From an uncultured Clostridia bacterium (GTDB lineage Bacteria; Bacillota; Clostridia; Oscillospirales; Ruminococcaceae): a stretch of DNA of 41,933 bases. A program made the position numbers and the translations under genes. The notes under the pieces were generated by a model. That model was not told where the DNA came from, made no database searches, and was given only the letters and a program-made list of their open reading frames with translations. Shown in pieces: positions 35,444-41,933 of the stretch; position 1 is the stretch's first letter; each line of letters starts with the position of its first letter. The stretch spans positions 1 to 41,933 of the forward strand of contig CANRFB010000020.1 in the NCBI GenBank assembly GCA_947629785.1, given 5' to 3'.

Positions 35444-35545
35444 AGGTATGGACGGTAAATATACCGCGCCTTTCCCGAAGTCGGCGGACGATTCCGCTTA
35501 TGAAACGGGATATCAATGTTTTATGGGAAAGGATGTATTTTTTAT

Positions 35546-36430
35546 ATGAACAGAACCTTTTTTATAGTCGGCGGCGACCTGAGATTTGCCGCGCTGGCGG
35601 ACGTTTTAGCGGAGAATAACAGGGTGTTTGCCGTCGGTTTTGACAGGACGGCGGCCATGTCGGACAAAGTGCAGACCTGCGACAATGTTCTTTCCGCGGA
35701 GGAACGGGCGGACTGCATAGTTCTTCCCCTGCCCGCTTCTGCGGACGGAGTGACGGTCAGCACGCCGTTTTCCGGCAGAAATGTTTCCCTTGAAAGTCTT
35801 ACACATATCATAAAGGAAAACGGAGTGGTTTTCGGCGGAATGATTTCCCCGAAAGTCAGGGAAATTTTTGAAAACCGCGGCATAACCGTTTTTGACTATG
35901 CGCAGAGGGAAGAATTTGCCGTAATGAACGCCGTAGCCACAGCGGAGGGCGCCGTTCAGGCGGCTATGGAAGAACTTGCTTCCACGCTTTCGGGCAGGAA
36001 AATACTTATTCTCGGCGCAGGACGAATTTCCAAAGTGCTTATTGATGTACTGTCGGGTTTCCACACGGATATTACGGTGGCGGCTCGGAAATGTTCCGAT
36101 CTGGCATGGGCAAAGGTTTACGGCTGTCACGGTGTGCGCATAAGCGGAATTGACGATATTCTGAGCGGTTTTGAAGTGATATTCAACACCGTTCCTGCCG
36201 TTATTCTTGACGAAAACAGACTTAAACGCATAGACAAAAATTGTCTTGTAATAGACCTTGCTTCCAAACCGGGCGGCGTTGATTTTGAAACGGCAGGAAT
36301 GTTGGGAGTCCGCGCGCTGTGGCTGCTTTCCCTGCCGGGAAAAGTCGCGCCCGTCACGTCAGGTAAAGTCATTGCCGACACTATAGGAAATATCCTTTCC
36401 GAAAGGAGTGAAAGCAATGACCGACCTTAA
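35546..36430 (+). CDS. dpaA: Dipicolinate synthase subunit A
   Basis: 294 aa. It oxidises dihydrodipicolinate to dipicolinic acid in the mother cell, together with DpaB; dipicolinate then fills the spore core. It has an N-terminal nucleotide-like fold (FFIVGGDLRFAALADVLAE) and a second Rossmann region with ILILGAGRISKVL (NAD(P) binding), then SLPGKVAPVTSGKVIADTI, all family blocks. I start it at MNRTFFIVGG. The GGAAAGGA ribosome site is rather far (12 bases); an earlier in-frame ATG at 35516 is possible. It overlaps dpaB by 14 bases. Confidence 0.92.
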   Translation: MNRTFFIVGGDLRFAALADVLAENNRVFAVGFDRTAAMSDKVQTCDNVLSAEERADCIVLPLPASADGVTVSTPFSGRNVSLESLTHIIKENGVVFGGMISPKVREIFENRGITVFDYAQREEFAVMNAVATAEGAVQAAMEELASTLSGRKILILGAGRISKVLIDVLSGFHTDITVAARKCSDLAWAKVYGCHGVRISGIDDILSGFEVIFNTVPAVILDENRLKRIDKNCLVIDLASKPGGVDFETAGMLGVRALWLLSLPGKVAPVTSGKVIADTIGNILSERSESNDRP

Positions 36431-36812
36431 AGGAAAAAGGATAGGATTTGCAGTGTGCGGCTCGTTCTGCACATTCAAAAAAGCATTTGAACAGCTTGAA
36501 CGGCTTATAGGATTGGGAGCGGACGTAACAGCTGTAATGTCCTTTAACGCGGCGTCCCTCGATACGCGTTTCGGAACGGCTGCCGGACACATAGAATATC
36601 TTGAACGCATCACCGGAAAGCCTGTTATAAAAACCATTGAAGCGGCGGAACCCATCGGTCCCAAAAGAATGTTTGACGTTCTTGTTATTGCCCCCTGTAC
36701 GGGCAACACCCTTGCAAAGCTTGCGCTGGGAATAATTGACACAGCGGTTATTGAAAAACGGAAACTTTTCAGGACAGACAGCCTGTGCTGCCTGATCGTC
36801 TGCCCCATATAA
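36417..36812 (+). pseudogene. dpaB: Dipicolinate synthase subunit B, cut short by the recombinase element
   Basis: The first 111 residues are a normal flavoprotein-like DpaB/SpoVFB: MTDLKGKRIGFAVCGSFCTF, AEPIGPKRMFDVLVIAPCTG and NTLAKLALGIIDTAV. After V111 (codon 36747-36749) the next family block (xMAAKxxLRNxRPVV) is absent in all frames. Twenty unrelated residues follow before a stop at 36812. The usual length is about 195-200, so some 85 C-terminal residues are missing. From 36769 the other strand is the recombinase gene. AAGGAG is 8 bases before the ATG. The 3' part is presumably beyond the window, on the far side of the element. Confidence 0.85.
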
Positions 36813-38418
36813 AAACACTGAGTGTCCTCCCGTTCCATACAATTTTTTTAATGTTCTGCCGTATAAAACGCCGCTTATATTCAGCGCTTAGATCGTCAAA
36901 ATTTTCCTTGAAAAATGCAAACGCTTTCTTTGTCGTATCAAAATTATTTTTTGACTGCTTATGCCCTGTTTCCATAAGTCTGAGCCGCTTGATTTCGTTG
37001 TCAGCTGCGGTTATAGTGTCATTGATCTCGGATATTTCCTTATTTATGTATTGAATTGCAGTCGCATTTACGTCTGCTGTCAAAGCTTTTATAAGTGCGC
37101 TTATCTCTTTTTGTTTTTTTGCCTTTATTGCTTCTTGATTTTTTATAAGTTCGCTTGTGTCAGTTTTAAAATTTGATTTAGATAATTTGTCCAAATATCT
37201 GTTAAAGATATTATCGGGTATGTCATAATTTAAAAGAATACTGCATATAAGCTTATCCGCCGCCATTCCGTTTAAATTATTGCAGTCGCATTTTTCTTTT
37301 TTACTGCGTTCCTTTAATTCACACATATAAGAATATGGTTTGATACCTTTTTTATTGGCGCGGTGATACTTTGGGCGCATATGGCTGCCGCACTCGCAAA
37401 ACAGTATTCCCGACAGTAATGCATCAGGATTGTGACTTTGCTTATACTTGAGTTTGCTGTCGGCGTTTTCTTCCAAAATTCCTTGTACTTCAACCCATTC
37501 CTCGCCCGAAATTATGCCCTTATGTCTGCCAACGGCTACTATCCATTCCTTTCGGTCGTTTATAATGCGTTCGCCGCCTCTTGACGTTTCTGTTTTACTG
37601 TATCCTATAAATCCGTGGCTGCCGTCGCATTCTTCCTTTGAGGCGGCAATATCACAGCCTTGAATATTAAAGTAATCGTATGCAAATTCATCAGCGGTGC
37701 AGTAAACAGGGTTTGTAAGTATAGTACGTATTGTTGTTACATAAAATTGGCAATCATTTTGAGTAGTTATTTTATGGTTGAGCAGATATGTTTCAAGTTT
37801 TTTCATTGAACGGAGTTCTATGAATTTTTTGTACATCAGTTTGACGGTTTCAAGTTGTATATGATTTTCTGTCAGCTTGCAGCATTTTCTGCTTACTCCT
37901 TTGTCGTCAATATAATCTACCTTTTCGGAATCAAAACCCAACGGCGTTGTTCCGCCGAGCCAGCGTCCTGTTTTTGCAAGCATATACATATTGTCTTTGA
38001 CGCGTTCAGCAATTGTTTCTCTTTCAAGCTGGGCGAAAACAGCGGCTATATTCATCATTGCCCTGCCCATAGGCGTTGATGTATCGAATTGCTCTTTGAC
38101 CGACACAAAAGCAGTTTTATATCCGTTCAGTTTATCTATCAGTCCTGCAAAATCACCAACGTTACGGCTTATTCTGTCAAGTCTGTATACTACTATTACA
38201 TCAAACGGTACTTTTTTTTCGATCTCCATAAGGCTTTTGAACTGCGGTCTGTTAAGAGATTGACCCGAAAAGCCTTCGTCCTCAAAAATCGAGATATTAT
38301 CTTCTGTGGCTTCGGGGAAATGGCTGAAAATATAGCTTCGGCACATATCAATCTGATTTTCAATAGACTCGCCTTTGCCGGTAAACTTAGATTTTCTTGA
38401 GTATATTGCTATTTGCAC
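36769..38418 (-). CDS. Large serine recombinase
   Basis: 549 aa. The resolvase domain has catalytic Ser10 in IYSRKS, then GKGESIENQ, EDEGFSGQSLNRP, VYRLDRISRN and AQLERETIAERVKDNM. The recombinase domain follows (about 165-270). A zinc ribbon has GILFCECGSHM and then MCELKERSKKEKCDC. The long C-terminal coiled coil (about 430-500) is typical of integrases that need a directionality factor. I start it at GTG 38418, where GGGGGTG is about 7 bases upstream; frames open to 38481 have no site. The stop is about 20 bases from the dpaB junction and it is transcribed towards it. It is driven by a consensus sigma-A promoter. Confidence 0.93.
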   Translation of the reverse strand: MQIAIYSRKSKFTGKGESIENQIDMCRSYIFSHFPEATEDNISIFEDEGFSGQSLNRPQFKSLMEIEKKVPFDVIVVYRLDRISRNVGDFAGLIDKLNGYKTAFVSVKEQFDTSTPMGRAMMNIAAVFAQLERETIAERVKDNMYMLAKTGRWLGGTTPLGFDSEKVDYIDDKGVSRKCCKLTENHIQLETVKLMYKKFIELRSMKKLETYLLNHKITTQNDCQFYVTTIRTILTNPVYCTADEFAYDYFNIQGCDIAASKEECDGSHGFIGYSKTETSRGGERIINDRKEWIVAVGRHKGIISGEEWVEVQGILEENADSKLKYKQSHNPDALLSGILFCECGSHMRPKYHRANKKGIKPYSYMCELKERSKKEKCDCNNLNGMAADKLICSILLNYDIPDNIFNRYLDKLSKSNFKTDTSELIKNQEAIKAKKQKEISALIKALTADVNATAIQYINKEISEINDTITAADNEIKRLRLMETGHKQSKNNFDTTKKAFAFFKENFDDLSAEYKRRFIRQNIKKIVWNGRTLSVFIWGRRSGSTGCLS

Positions 38419-38452
38419 GTATAACACCCCCATTATAATATTTAATAATATA

Positions 38453-38481
38453 ATTATAACAAGCTTAGATACAAATGTCAA
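38453..38481 (-). promoter_or_regulatory. Consensus promoter of the recombinase
   Basis: On minus: TTGACA (38476-38481), exactly 17 bases, TATAAT (38453-38458). A perfect housekeeping promoter; no sigma-E or sigma-K pattern was seen here. Confidence 0.8.
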
Positions 38482-38818: not shown

Positions 38819-39697
38819 ATGAAACAAGGGATTGAATACGACAAACAAGCGTGGATAACGCTTTTTGACAAGGAGTATAAGGATAATCAGTATTTGTATC
38901 ATTATACGGATATACTTAAAGCAATAAAGATTTTAAATACGGATTCATTAAAATTTTCTAAGCTTTGCAAAACAAATGATACAATAGAAGCAAAACCTAA
39001 AATAAAGTTGGATGAAAATGTTGAATGTGATAATAAGCGAAAATCTAAGATAATGGATTATTTCTTTAAAACAAATACAAGTTACATTCAACTTTTATGT
39101 TTTACGGACGATCAGCCTCGGAGAAATGAATCACATGTCAATGAGGTAAAAATGTATTCCGACTTTTCGGGAAGAGGCTTTTCACTTCCTCGAATGTGGG
39201 CACAGTATGCTGAAAAAAACACCGGTGTCTGTTTAATGTTTAACCGGTTTAAATTAAATCAAATAATAAATGAATTGCTTGAGGATTATATTTTGGAAAG
39301 AGGGAGTGTTACTTATATAAATCAATTTCAGGAATATCCTTTAGAAAGCAAAACTATTAACTATATTCTATCGGATGCTGAATTACATAACAGTGATATT
39401 GAAACAACGGTAAGAAATCAGAAATTTTTTGAAAGGCATAAAGATTTTATAAAGTATAATTATCTCTACAAATTAGATGATTGGGCTGGAGAAAGAGAGT
39501 TTAGATATATCGCATACGGAGATAATGATTTTTTCGTAAACGGAATATCTGAAGCATTAAGTGGCGTGATTATTGGTGAAAAAATCGAACCGGAGTTTGA
39601 AAAAATAGTTACTGTTTTTTGCCAAAATATTTGTGAGGTGAAAAAAATATCATTTACTTGCAATGGATGTAATATATCAAACGTACATTCAGATTGA
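38819..39697 (+). CDS. DUF2971 family protein
   Basis: 292 aa from ATG 38819 (GGGAGGG about 9 bases upstream). The family pattern is visible: YLYHYTDILKAIKIL near the start, a block around LKFSKLCKTNDTIEAKP, LLCFTDD, then LPRMWAQYAEKNTGVCLMF, and late DWAGEREFRYIAYG with GVIIGEKI. Members occur widely in accessory DNA and often near defence genes; their activity is unknown to me. Soluble, no signal peptide. It is followed 20 bases later by the 339-aa gene with its own CGGAGG. Confidence 0.8.
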   Translation: MKQGIEYDKQAWITLFDKEYKDNQYLYHYTDILKAIKILNTDSLKFSKLCKTNDTIEAKPKIKLDENVECDNKRKSKIMDYFFKTNTSYIQLLCFTDDQPRRNESHVNEVKMYSDFSGRGFSLPRMWAQYAEKNTGVCLMFNRFKLNQIINELLEDYILERGSVTYINQFQEYPLESKTINYILSDAELHNSDIETTVRNQKFFERHKDFIKYNYLYKLDDWAGEREFRYIAYGDNDFFVNGISEALSGVIIGEKIEPEFEKIVTVFCQNICEVKKISFTCNGCNISNVHSD

Positions 39698-39717: not shown

Positions 39718-40737
39718 ATGGGCAATAAAAAAAGAAATACACTCAGAGCGGCTTTTATGAAAAATTTCAGCACAAATGAAATTAATAGGTATATACTTAT
39801 TGACAATGATAATATTTCCCATGAAGATAAAACAAGTTTCATTAAGGAAATCAATGAGAGATTATGGTTTGCTATACAAGAAGTGAATTCATTATGTAAA
39901 GGACGTATTTTGCCATTTGTTAAAGTTAATCTTGTAGAGAGAGAAAGTGGTAGTCAATTTCTTAGAGTAATAGTGACTGAAATGAATTCGAATAAATCTT
40001 TTGAGGATATAATCGGGGACAGAGTAAATATAGATGAATTATCACATTTAATTATTTTTAAAACATTATCACCTGAACGTATTGTTATGGTTAGTGATGA
40101 ATTTGCAAAGGGCAATGCAAAAATGCTGATTGACGAAAAAGACCAGATAGCAGCTGCCGTAGATATTTTCTTGGATATTGCAATGTTTAATTCACTTTCC
40201 TTTTTAAAAAATCTACCTAATGAAAGTAAAAAAAAATTTAGCAAGGAAAAATATGATTTCTTTAAATCAAATGGTGATAGCTGTTATTATAGATATATTG
40301 ATTCTGATGGGGTGCCTCCCGCATATTATTCTTTTGCTTTTTCTGCAAGAACAGATGATAAAAATATTGATTTTGGTAAATATCTGTATTTATGGGACTT
40401 TTTTATTAAATCAAAATACAAAAAGGAAAAAAATCGGGTTCCCCCTCCATATGAGCAGCTTAAACAACACATTGATACCGGAAATATTCCTAAGAAGTAT
40501 TTAGAAGAAAAACCATTTTGGAATAAAATCAAAAATGGAGACTATCTATTCTTAAAAATTAACATAGAGGTAAAAACAAATGCAGAAAAAAACCAAATTC
40601 TTTATTATTTGGGATTTAAAAGATATAGTAAAAAAATTATAAAATTGGTACCTTTAAATGAGTATCATAATCCGCTTTTGAAAAAGTGGCTTCGGCAACT
40701 TAATATTTCGGCTTTTAAAATTGTTGTTGACAAATAA
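39718..40737 (+). CDS. Unrecognised 339-aa protein
   Basis: 339 aa, strongly charged and Lys-rich, with no signal peptide or membrane segment. The first 150 residues look alpha/beta (INERLWFAIQEVNSLCKGR, FLRVIVTEMNSN, DELSHLIIFKTLSPERIVMV). The C-terminal half is Tyr/Lys-rich (FGKYLYLWDFFIKSKYKKEK, ILYYLGFKRYSKKI). I recognise no family. It is translated after DUF2971 and 14 bases before agrB, so it belongs to the same operon. A toxin, antiphage effector or regulator are all open. Confidence 0.75.
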   Translation: MGNKKRNTLRAAFMKNFSTNEINRYILIDNDNISHEDKTSFIKEINERLWFAIQEVNSLCKGRILPFVKVNLVERESGSQFLRVIVTEMNSNKSFEDIIGDRVNIDELSHLIIFKTLSPERIVMVSDEFAKGNAKMLIDEKDQIAAAVDIFLDIAMFNSLSFLKNLPNESKKKFSKEKYDFFKSNGDSCYYRYIDSDGVPPAYYSFAFSARTDDKNIDFGKYLYLWDFFIKSKYKKEKNRVPPPYEQLKQHIDTGNIPKKYLEEKPFWNKIKNGDYLFLKINIEVKTNAEKNQILYYLGFKRYSKKIIKLVPLNEYHNPLLKKWLRQLNISAFKIVVDK

Positions 40738-40751
40738 TTATGGAGTTTTTT

Positions 40752-41339
40752 ATGGAAAAACTGATTGATAAAATAATTTCAGAGATGAAAGCGAATGATT
40801 CGCTTACCGATGATGAAGAAATTATAAGAACAGGATTAGATCTTATATTCTCAAAGCTGTTTTTTACCATTATGATATTGTTTATGGGCTTAATTTTGAA
40901 TTGTTTTTGGGAAAGTGTTGTATTTACAGTGTCTTTTTCTTTGCTTCGTGAATATGGTGGGGGTTATCATGCAGAAACAAGGAAAAAATGCTTTATGTTG
41001 TCAATTCTAACTTTGGCAGCAGCTTTGAGTATAATCAAGCTTGTTGAAAACTTTCAATTATTAACGTTCCCTTTTTATGGAATAGCGTTGGTTTCGGTTA
41101 TATACATATTATTAAATGCACCGATTGATACATTGAACAAAAGATTTGACGATGATGAAATAAAGGTTTACGGGAAAAGGGCAAGACTGTTGACTGTCAT
41201 TATATCAGCGATTGCTGCGCTCCTTTGGTGCTTAAGGCTCGGTAATTTTACGTTTTCAATTTTAACGGGGATAATTGTAGAGGCATATCTAATGATTAAA
41301 GGACAGATTTCAAATTCCATTAACAGGGAGGAAGTATGA
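40752..41339 (+). CDS. agrB: AgrB-type accessory gene regulator protease
   Basis: 195 aa, an integral membrane cysteine protease that cuts and cyclises AgrD-type peptides in quorum sensing. Catalytic His73 and Cys80 are seven residues apart in EYGGGYHAETRKKC, as in the staphylococcal enzyme. Four to six membrane helices follow the usual pattern. I start it at 40752 with GGAG (40742-40745) six bases upstream; the ATG at 40740 overlaps that site. Its stop overlaps the ATG of the XRE gene. No AgrD precursor or AgrC/AgrA pair is in the window. Confidence 0.88.
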   Translation: MEKLIDKIISEMKANDSLTDDEEIIRTGLDLIFSKLFFTIMILFMGLILNCFWESVVFTVSFSLLREYGGGYHAETRKKCFMLSILTLAAALSIIKLVENFQLLTFPFYGIALVSVIYILLNAPIDTLNKRFDDDEIKVYGKRARLLTVIISAIAALLWCLRLGNFTFSILTGIIVEAYLMIKGQISNSINREEV

Positions 41340-41692
41340 ACATAGGAACATTCGGTAAATATGTTTCATATCTTCGCATAAGCAGGGATCTTTCTATTAG
41401 GCAATTTGCGGAAATGATTGGTTTATCACCCTATTATCTTTGTTCTATTGAAAATGGTAGAAGGAAAAATCCTAAAATCAAAACGCTTGGGAAAATGTAT
41501 CTTGCCCTTGGACTTCGCAAGGATGAAATGGAGAAGCTGCTTGACCTCTACGCAAAAGCAAACGGACAAGCCAGTGCGGATATTATTAATTATATAATGG
41601 AAAACGATGATACCCGATCGCAGCTTCGCAAGGAGAGGGATCATTGTTCTGAAGAATATTGGAATATATTTATTGAAAAAATAACGAAATAA
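41336..41692 (+). CDS. XRE-family helix-turn-helix regulator
   Basis: 118 aa. The HTH spans about residues 6-60 (YVSYLRISRDLSIRQFAEMIG, LSPYYLCSIENGRRKNPK). The C-terminal part is helical (LRKDEMEKLLDLYAKANGQ, ERDHCSEEYWNIFIEK). It starts within the agrB stop (ATGA), so the two are made together. GGAGG lies before the ATG. It may repress the operon promoter at 38728 or control the recombinase. Confidence 0.88.
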   Translation: MNIGTFGKYVSYLRISRDLSIRQFAEMIGLSPYYLCSIENGRRKNPKIKTLGKMYLALGLRKDEMEKLLDLYAKANGQASADIINYIMENDDTRSQLRKERDHCSEEYWNIFIEKITK

Positions 41693-41769: not shown

Positions 41770-41933
41770 TTGATAGCAGTTAATTCAAACATAATTATGC
41801 GGCAGACTAAAAAAATATGTTGTCCCGAATGCCACGGAAGAATATGTGATGTGGTTGTTCCCGAACAAGCAGTATGCCGTCATAAATATAGAGTAATTCT
41901 TGACGGCAACAGTGACTTTTTTATAGCAATAAA
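41770..41933 (+). CDS. Cys-rich, zinc-ribbon-like ORF, cut by the window edge
   Basis: Open to the end (54 codons seen). TTG start at 41770, chosen because GAGGTGA (41754-41760) is 9 bases upstream; the in-frame ATG at 41797 has no site. It reads MIAVNSNIIMRQTKKICCPECHGR then ICDVVVPEQ and AVCRHKYRVILDG. The CCPECHGRICD block looks like half of a zinc ribbon. Short proteins of this look are common in Clostridia integrative elements. Function unknown. Confidence 0.65.
   Translation, partial: MIAVNSNIIMRQTKKICCPECHGRICDVVVPEQAVCRHKYRVILDGNSDFFIAI

Follow-up and report, generated by a model that had tools for sequence, protein, structure and literature searches.

The window studied here, a stretch of 41,933 nucleotides that makes up contig C20 of the genome of an uncultured Clostridia bacterium (G000; 3.05 Mb in 162 contigs), contains a mobile element inserted inside dpaB, a mother-cell sporulation gene of which both halves are kept. 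Under its other name, spoVFB, it is listed as a mother-cell gene in passages of PMC4191935. From the junctions described below, the insertion is almost certainly site-specific and reversible; that excision is timed to the mother cell, or coupled to sporulation, seems to us only somewhat probable.

Likeness to the DpaB family ends at the dinucleotide AC (36741-36742), in a Thr codon of the conserved motif G-I-I-D-T-P-V-T. A preliminary description of the window had DpaB normal to V111 (36749) and lost thereafter; the break is real, and this position overshoots by about two codons, since the junction by chance reads D-T-A-V, the true break falling at Thr109. The missing C-terminal residues, for which that description proposed a search, are present on a second contig of the same genome (C11:14185-14442, locus L036; DpaB family match C11:14170-14442), behind the opposite arm of the attachment site. 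Searches of G000 with the DpaB family and with the wider flavoprotein family led to the same two partial places, the 5' part on C20 and the 3' part on C11. Neither search of the genome found a second, whole dpaB, which the preliminary description had named as telling against a regulated element.

Joined in silico at AC, the two halves give an unbroken DpaB of 193 aa with the conserved G-I-I-D-T-P-V-T-M-A-A-K, scoring 336.9 bits on a hidden Markov model built from 22 intact genes. The rejoining is in frame, again in silico, in all four genomes in which both halves are cut at this site (G000, G018, G290 and G076). The open frames of both parts could also suggest that the halves are made as separate polypeptides which assemble into a working DpaB, excision being unneeded. 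We hold this to be highly improbable: the gene is broken within what is one flavoprotein domain, the solved DpaB chains 3mcu and 3lqk aligning over their whole length with an intact relative, and the 3' part has no ATG before that of the conserved M in M-A-A-K.

We propose that a mobilizable, site-specific element integrated into dpaB when its large serine recombinase joined attP, in which two inverted arms of 24 bp flank the core AC, to attB at the D-T-P-V-T codons. Were attL to recombine with attR, a circle would come free and, as the in silico joining indicates, this removal would restore dpaB exactly. The recombinase would be made constitutively, and a directionality factor would set off excision in the terminal mother cell. 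Spores would then still receive dipicolinate, and the chromosome that is passed on would retain the element, as with skin, SP-beta and vfbin.

Attachment sites and their repeated use

The preliminary description expected a short repeat common to both junctions. Little direct sequence is shared beyond the stretch around AC, and the two ends of the element are instead related as inverted repeats, with 20 of 24 bp matching (the best of 20,000 random positions of the same DNA reached 17). We infer that C20 and C11 carry the two ends of one element, because the attachment sites match. The element would then measure at least 19.4 kb (5.2 kb on C20 and 14.2 kb on C11), with an assembly gap between the contigs, C20 ending at 41933 inside it. 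The serine recombinase that had been described at the junction, pointing into the break, is indeed there, with 550 aa in place of 549, its 3' end 27 bp from the core in place of about 20, and matches to the Resolvase, Recombinase and zinc-ribbon domains; the listed GTG start of the helix-turn-helix (HTH) open reading frame (ORF) lies 34 bp from the core.

The same codons are interrupted in other genomes. Among 21 genomes of the genus, dpaB is full in 14, split at this site in four (G000, G002, G006 and G018, with the 3' half alone found in G002 and G006) and not seen in three, all less than 80% complete. Across the 396 genomes of the family, 294 have a DpaB match above the curated cut-off. Seven further family genomes whose best DpaB match had partial-gene strength were looked at more closely. 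In three of them the cut falls at these codons: a single contig carries both halves in G290, and likewise in G076, and G036 gave the 3' half alone. The inserts measure about 7.9 kb in G290, where the serine recombinase is clearly different from the window type, and about 2.7 kb in G076, where the recombinase ORF of 359 aa seems truncated, judged by its length. As candidates for a split dpaB, G108 and G110 were rejected, their breaks being contig ends, and the gene of G357 is full-length but divergent.

Three observations stand beside these. In the G076 insert (L067:1091-4380) only the short recombinase ORF and a gene read as an AI-2E-type transporter were seen, with a direct repeat of at least 14 bp flanking it. 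The dpaB of G430 seems split near profile position 76 (L070/L071, G430:C90 and C68), not at the D-T-P-V-T codons, and a recombinase ORF there abuts a gene read as the 3' end of dpaA, possibly a second insertion in the same operon. In G290 both dpaB (L066, C2) and sigK (L288, C26) are interrupted, by elements that seem unrelated.

The G000 element has its recombinase end at the 5' side of dpaB. G006 and G036, with the HTH end at the 3' side, share this orientation; G018 and G002, with the recombinase end at the 3' side, have the opposite one. Next to the arm on the recombinase side, the core is AC in G000 and GT in G018 and G002 (window 36741-36766; L036:14161-14186; L037; L038; L040). With large serine recombinases the core sets the direction, and since the arms are nearly symmetric, an altered core would account for the flip. 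Taken together, the junctions indicate that the codons for D-T-[PS]-V-T serve as insertion site for three or more types of element, in both orientations.

In G000 each half of the gene is on a contig of its own and the assembly lacks the middle of the element, as one would see if the junctions were chimeric joins. We nevertheless rejected misassembly, which is scarcely credible because independent genomes show corresponding junctions; besides, the attR of G006 is identical, and G290 and G076 hold both halves on one contig.

The element, its cargo and its transfer

The features of the window are given in Table 1. They include the AgrB-type cargo that the preliminary description had reported.

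Table 1. Positions of the dpa genes, the attachment site and the element genes in the window
Feature	Position	Strand	Evidence or remark
dpaA (dipicolinate synthase subunit A)	35516..36430	+	intact, directly 5' of dpaB; NF006162 272.7 bits vs cut-off 261; DpaA_N domain
dpaB 5' part	36417..36742	+	codon 1 to first two bases of Thr109; NF006161 positions 2-112/196
Inferred crossover core AC of attL	36741..36742	+	common to both junctions, centre of dyad; attR core at C11:14185-14186
Recombinase-side attachment arm	36743..36766	+	inverted repeat of far arm C11:14161-14184, 20/24 bp
Large serine recombinase, 550 aa	36769..38421	-	PF00239, PF07508, PF13408 (Resolvase, Recombinase, zinc-ribbon), all above cut-off; phrog_95 integrase 353.7 bits
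Predicted vegetative-type promoter of recombinase	38453..38481	-	TTGACA-17-TATAAT consensus match upstream of gene
Cargo DUF2971 protein	38819..39697	+	PF11185 39.2 bits vs cut-off 22
Cargo 339-aa ORF	39718..40737	+	no family match in NCBIfam, Pfam, PHROGs, PADLOC
Cargo AgrB-type protein	40740..41339	+	PF04647 123.4 bits vs cut-off 23
Cargo HTH regulator	41336..41692	+	PF12844, PF01381 above cut-off; element continues past contig end 41933

On C11, the first 14.2 kb belong to the element and carry Rhs-type genes, a relaxase, MobC/NikA, a CHC2 zinc-finger protein and, last, a double-HTH protein. The one Rhs-type gene that was searched combines RHS repeats with a non-specific endonuclease domain, and the rest are called Rhs by likeness to it. 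The element thus holds a PF03432 relaxase and MobC/NikA beside an integrase, its middle falling in the assembly gap, and because it carries relaxase and MobC its gene content indicates that it is not simply prophage-like. When seven cargo proteins were searched against defence families, the DUF2971 protein gave the sole match, a weak one to the candidate family PDC-S31 (best 38.7 bits).

G006, a different species of the same genus, carries a nearly identical right part of the element: its identity with G000 is 99.17% over 10,005 bp, about 260 bp of dpaB included, and 98.4% over a further 6,700 bp, against a host background of 78% (dpaB 3' part) and 79.8% (sigK region). The identity drops at the core, from 150/150 bases on the element side to 125/150 on the dpaB side. 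This pattern points to a recent transfer between species with site-specific integration. A search for a plasmid form gave one record, from Ruminococcus albus 7, with 65.8% identity over 31% of the mobilization region.

Excision, sporulation and related elements

The host of the window has kept sporulation genes. Its sigK is full-length (C6:9530-10201, positions 3-226/227, 294.8 bits), just below a curated cut-off that is passed in one of the 21 genus genomes; with sigK whole, an interruption of sigK, or skin proper, is ruled out in G000. It also keeps spoIVA and dpaA, and further sporulation-sigma matches are read as sigE and sigG. Among the other genomes with a split or apparently split dpaB, spoIVA is kept in G002, G006, G076, G290 and G430, and in part in G018. 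The median ratios of nonsynonymous to synonymous substitution (dN/dS) of the split halves against intact relatives were 0.077 (N) and 0.107 (C) in G000, 0.03 and 0.086 in G018, 0.096 (C) in G006 and 0.099 (C) in G002, and for pairs of intact dpaB 0.082 (N, 57/91 pairs usable) and 0.118 (C, 66/91), by which the split halves look as constrained as uninterrupted dpaB.

The preliminary description had read the locus as a regulated element of the skin or vfbin kind. What stands of this is the split, the other half present, the restored frame, the keeping of sigK, spoIVA and dpaA, and dN/dS values like those of intact genes; it is on regulation that the claim falls short. Several results weigh against a tie to sporulation. 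The recombinase promoter is of vegetative type, as judged by consensus, and sporulation motifs in the element are near chance, with 0 and 0 for sigma-E (0.5 and 1.3 expected) and 3 and 9 for sigma-K (2.1 and 5.8 expected) by simple base shuffles. No directionality factor was identified in the sequenced parts of the element, and no excised or circular form (attP), the lack of which in sporulating cells had been named beforehand as evidence against a regulated element, was found among viral contigs. In G002 sigK, sigE and sigG were without a match at E 1e-12 in an assembly of 360 contigs, though spoIVA is intact. The undamaged halves and low dN/dS are weak evidence, uninformative for G000 and G006, because the element came recently. 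The element of G000 is inverted relative to that of G018 and to the sigK elements, and its double-HTH gene is thus not behind the dpaB 5' half. Finally, the window recombinase falls outside the sigK clade of the recombinase tree, and nine rows of its 11-row sister clade lie beside the 3' part of feoB, which is not a sporulation gene.

Much of this would also be seen if, as the preliminary description allowed, a plain integrated element had killed dpaB: an ordinary mobilizable element that has inactivated the gene and excises now and then for transfer regardless of sporulation, with spores poor in dipicolinate or sporulation being lost. The relaxase and MobC, the recent transfer, the vegetative-type promoter with no sporulation promoter above chance, the feoB-side sister recombinases and the missing sigma factors of G002 are all in keeping with it. 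It is a serious possibility, which we nonetheless somewhat doubt: against it stand the repeated taking of the same codons by at least three element types with the halves in frame, the keeping of spoIVA in the carriers, and dN/dS values that show no sign of relaxed selection.

As to the relatives of the recombinase, 69 of 78 named loci taken had a recombinase match; a sigK half lay within 600 bp in 33 of these 69 and a dpaB half in one (G002). For loci on viral contigs the corresponding counts were 4/80 and 0/80. A family-wide search matched 26 of the 396 genomes at E 1e-130, none exceeding 48% identity apart from G002; six of its 10 new loci have a sigK half, and three of the best new loci adjoin a gene that we take to be birA. 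In the tree (64 rows) the recombinases of the window and G002 pair with each other (100/100). Their nearest neighbours are four rows whose target is unclear, two of which are one and the same gene, and beyond these comes the 11-row clade; the tree program warned that this first join of dpaB recombinases may be a long-branch effect. Nesting of the window recombinase within the sigK clade had been expected, and was dropped on this tree. Apparent 3' parts of feoB (iron transport) were seen beside recombinases at L075, L101, L102, L110, L112, L113, L115, L133, L137, L138, L141 and L142.

Two genomes of the window's genus, G007 (13.9 kb, one contig; L267/L073, G007:C17) and G008 (L269/L074), have a split sigK, and the 5' part of this gene alone was seen in G013 (L268) and in G016, there at a contig edge. 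The G007 insert (L267:2313-9855) presumably carries genes of sugar-nucleotide or polysaccharide synthesis. More widely, sigK was observed interrupted in many family genomes (L267/L073, L269/L074, L268, L276-L292, L295-L297, L299, L308, L309).

The double-HTH protein at the far arm of the G000 element shares 53% identity over 133 aa with a protein of this kind that G018 encodes at the 5' side of dpaB, and a search with five such proteins matched 40 of the 396 family genomes at E 1e-10. Of 30 double-HTH loci taken, 21 lie directly behind a truncated sigK 5' part, two at dpaB junctions (G000 and G036) and seven at neither. A whole sigK element, running from the sigK 5' part through HTH gene, cargo and recombinase to the sigK 3' part, is visible in G033 (7 contigs) and G160 (1 contig), while in G007, where sigK is split, the HTH gene was not detected. 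At L095 and on phage contigs (L177, L182, L213, L210 and L196) an HTH gene of this kind lies about 20 to 760 bp behind the recombinase gene, as expected if attP lies between them.

A double-HTH model trained on 29 loci (21 at sigK, two more at sigK from G008/G013 and six other) gave 63.6 bits over both domains for the G000 copy, 51.7 for G018 and 36.0 for G036, when single-domain HTH proteins reach 58.3. By these scores, homology between the double-HTH proteins of dpaB and sigK is clear for G000 and not beyond background for G018 and G036. Because these two copies score no higher than other HTH proteins the link is partly positional, and HTH homology as proof of it was rejected. Double-HTH matches with no sigK half alongside were seen at L293 (G229) and L304 (G000:C27), the former adjoining a short ORF that resembles a truncated ABC-transporter start.

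We think it rather unlikely that excision in a widespread class of sporulation-gene elements is switched by the double-HTH protein encoded next to attP, the window element belonging to this class while sitting inverted. If it were so, the HTH gene, which on integration usually comes to lie directly behind the 5' part of the host gene (sigK in 21/30 loci; dpaB in G018), would be expressed from the host gene's own mother-cell promoter, and its product would free that same gene.

Comparison with known systems

Integrative mobilizable elements with a serine integrase form a general class. The window element resembles them in its integrase, relaxase, MobC and recent transfer between species, and differs in that its attB lies inside a conserved sporulation gene. 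The source study on vfbin is reportedly that of Abe et al. (2013).

In passages of PMC4191935, PMC10747680, PMC5595907 and PMC5025042, vfbin is an element in spoVFB (dpaB) of Bacillus weihenstephanensis KBAB4. Compared by description, the two share the interrupted gene, a serine recombinase and, in silico for the window element, restoration of the gene by excision; as there described, vfbin has phage-related genes, a sporulation-expressed recombinase and proven excision, whereas the window element has mobilization genes and a vegetative-type promoter. With skin in sigK of B. subtilis, C. difficile and C. tetani, as outlined in parts of PMC5025042 and PMC5553647, it has in common a large serine recombinase at the element end beside a mother-cell gene half. 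The recombinase of C. difficile skin is, from the same outline, constitutive and sigma-A-dependent, comparable to the vegetative-type promoter seen here. Related recombinases and double-HTH genes occur at sigK in the window's own bacterial family. Unlike skin, however, the window element targets dpaB, its recombinase stands outside the sigK clade, and it is mobilizable and recently transferred. The element gin in gerE of Bacillus cereus, in the portions of PMC5595907 that treat it, is likewise not prophage-like, with possible traces of conjugation, a serine recombinase and inverted-repeat att sites, but it has three recombinases and a proven recombination directionality factor (RDF), GirX.

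Descriptions of vfbin, vrin, gin, yin, SP-beta and skin are found in passages of PMC4191935, PMC5595907, PMC10747680, PMC5025042, PMC6957869 and PMC5553647. According to these, SP-beta and C. difficile skin combine a constitutive recombinase with a sporulation-specific RDF (PMC5025042, PMC5595907), and the recombination units of skin, SP-beta and ICEBs1 can reportedly stand in for one another, whether the element is a phage or conjugative. A mobilizable element with its attB in a spore gene would fit these known rules, since the units are interchangeable and a constitutive recombinase with a sporulation RDF has precedent.

Genome surveys may wrongly score bacteria of this kind as lacking DpaB or SigK. 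With the exact att sites now given, excision can be checked in existing long-read data. Among the entries listed by searches of the open PMC library, which takes in no subscription papers, we recognised no report of dpaB being split in bacteria other than Bacillus, or of elements in the sigK of this family. The genomes point to a known kind of element, the intervening element in spoVFB/dpaB, in a new setting and on a new carrier: a mobilizable element of Oscillospiraceae-type Clostridia. They would extend the split gene from the Bacillus case to uncultured bacteria, in which the same few codons serve three or more element types, including a mobilizable one that has recently passed from one species to another.

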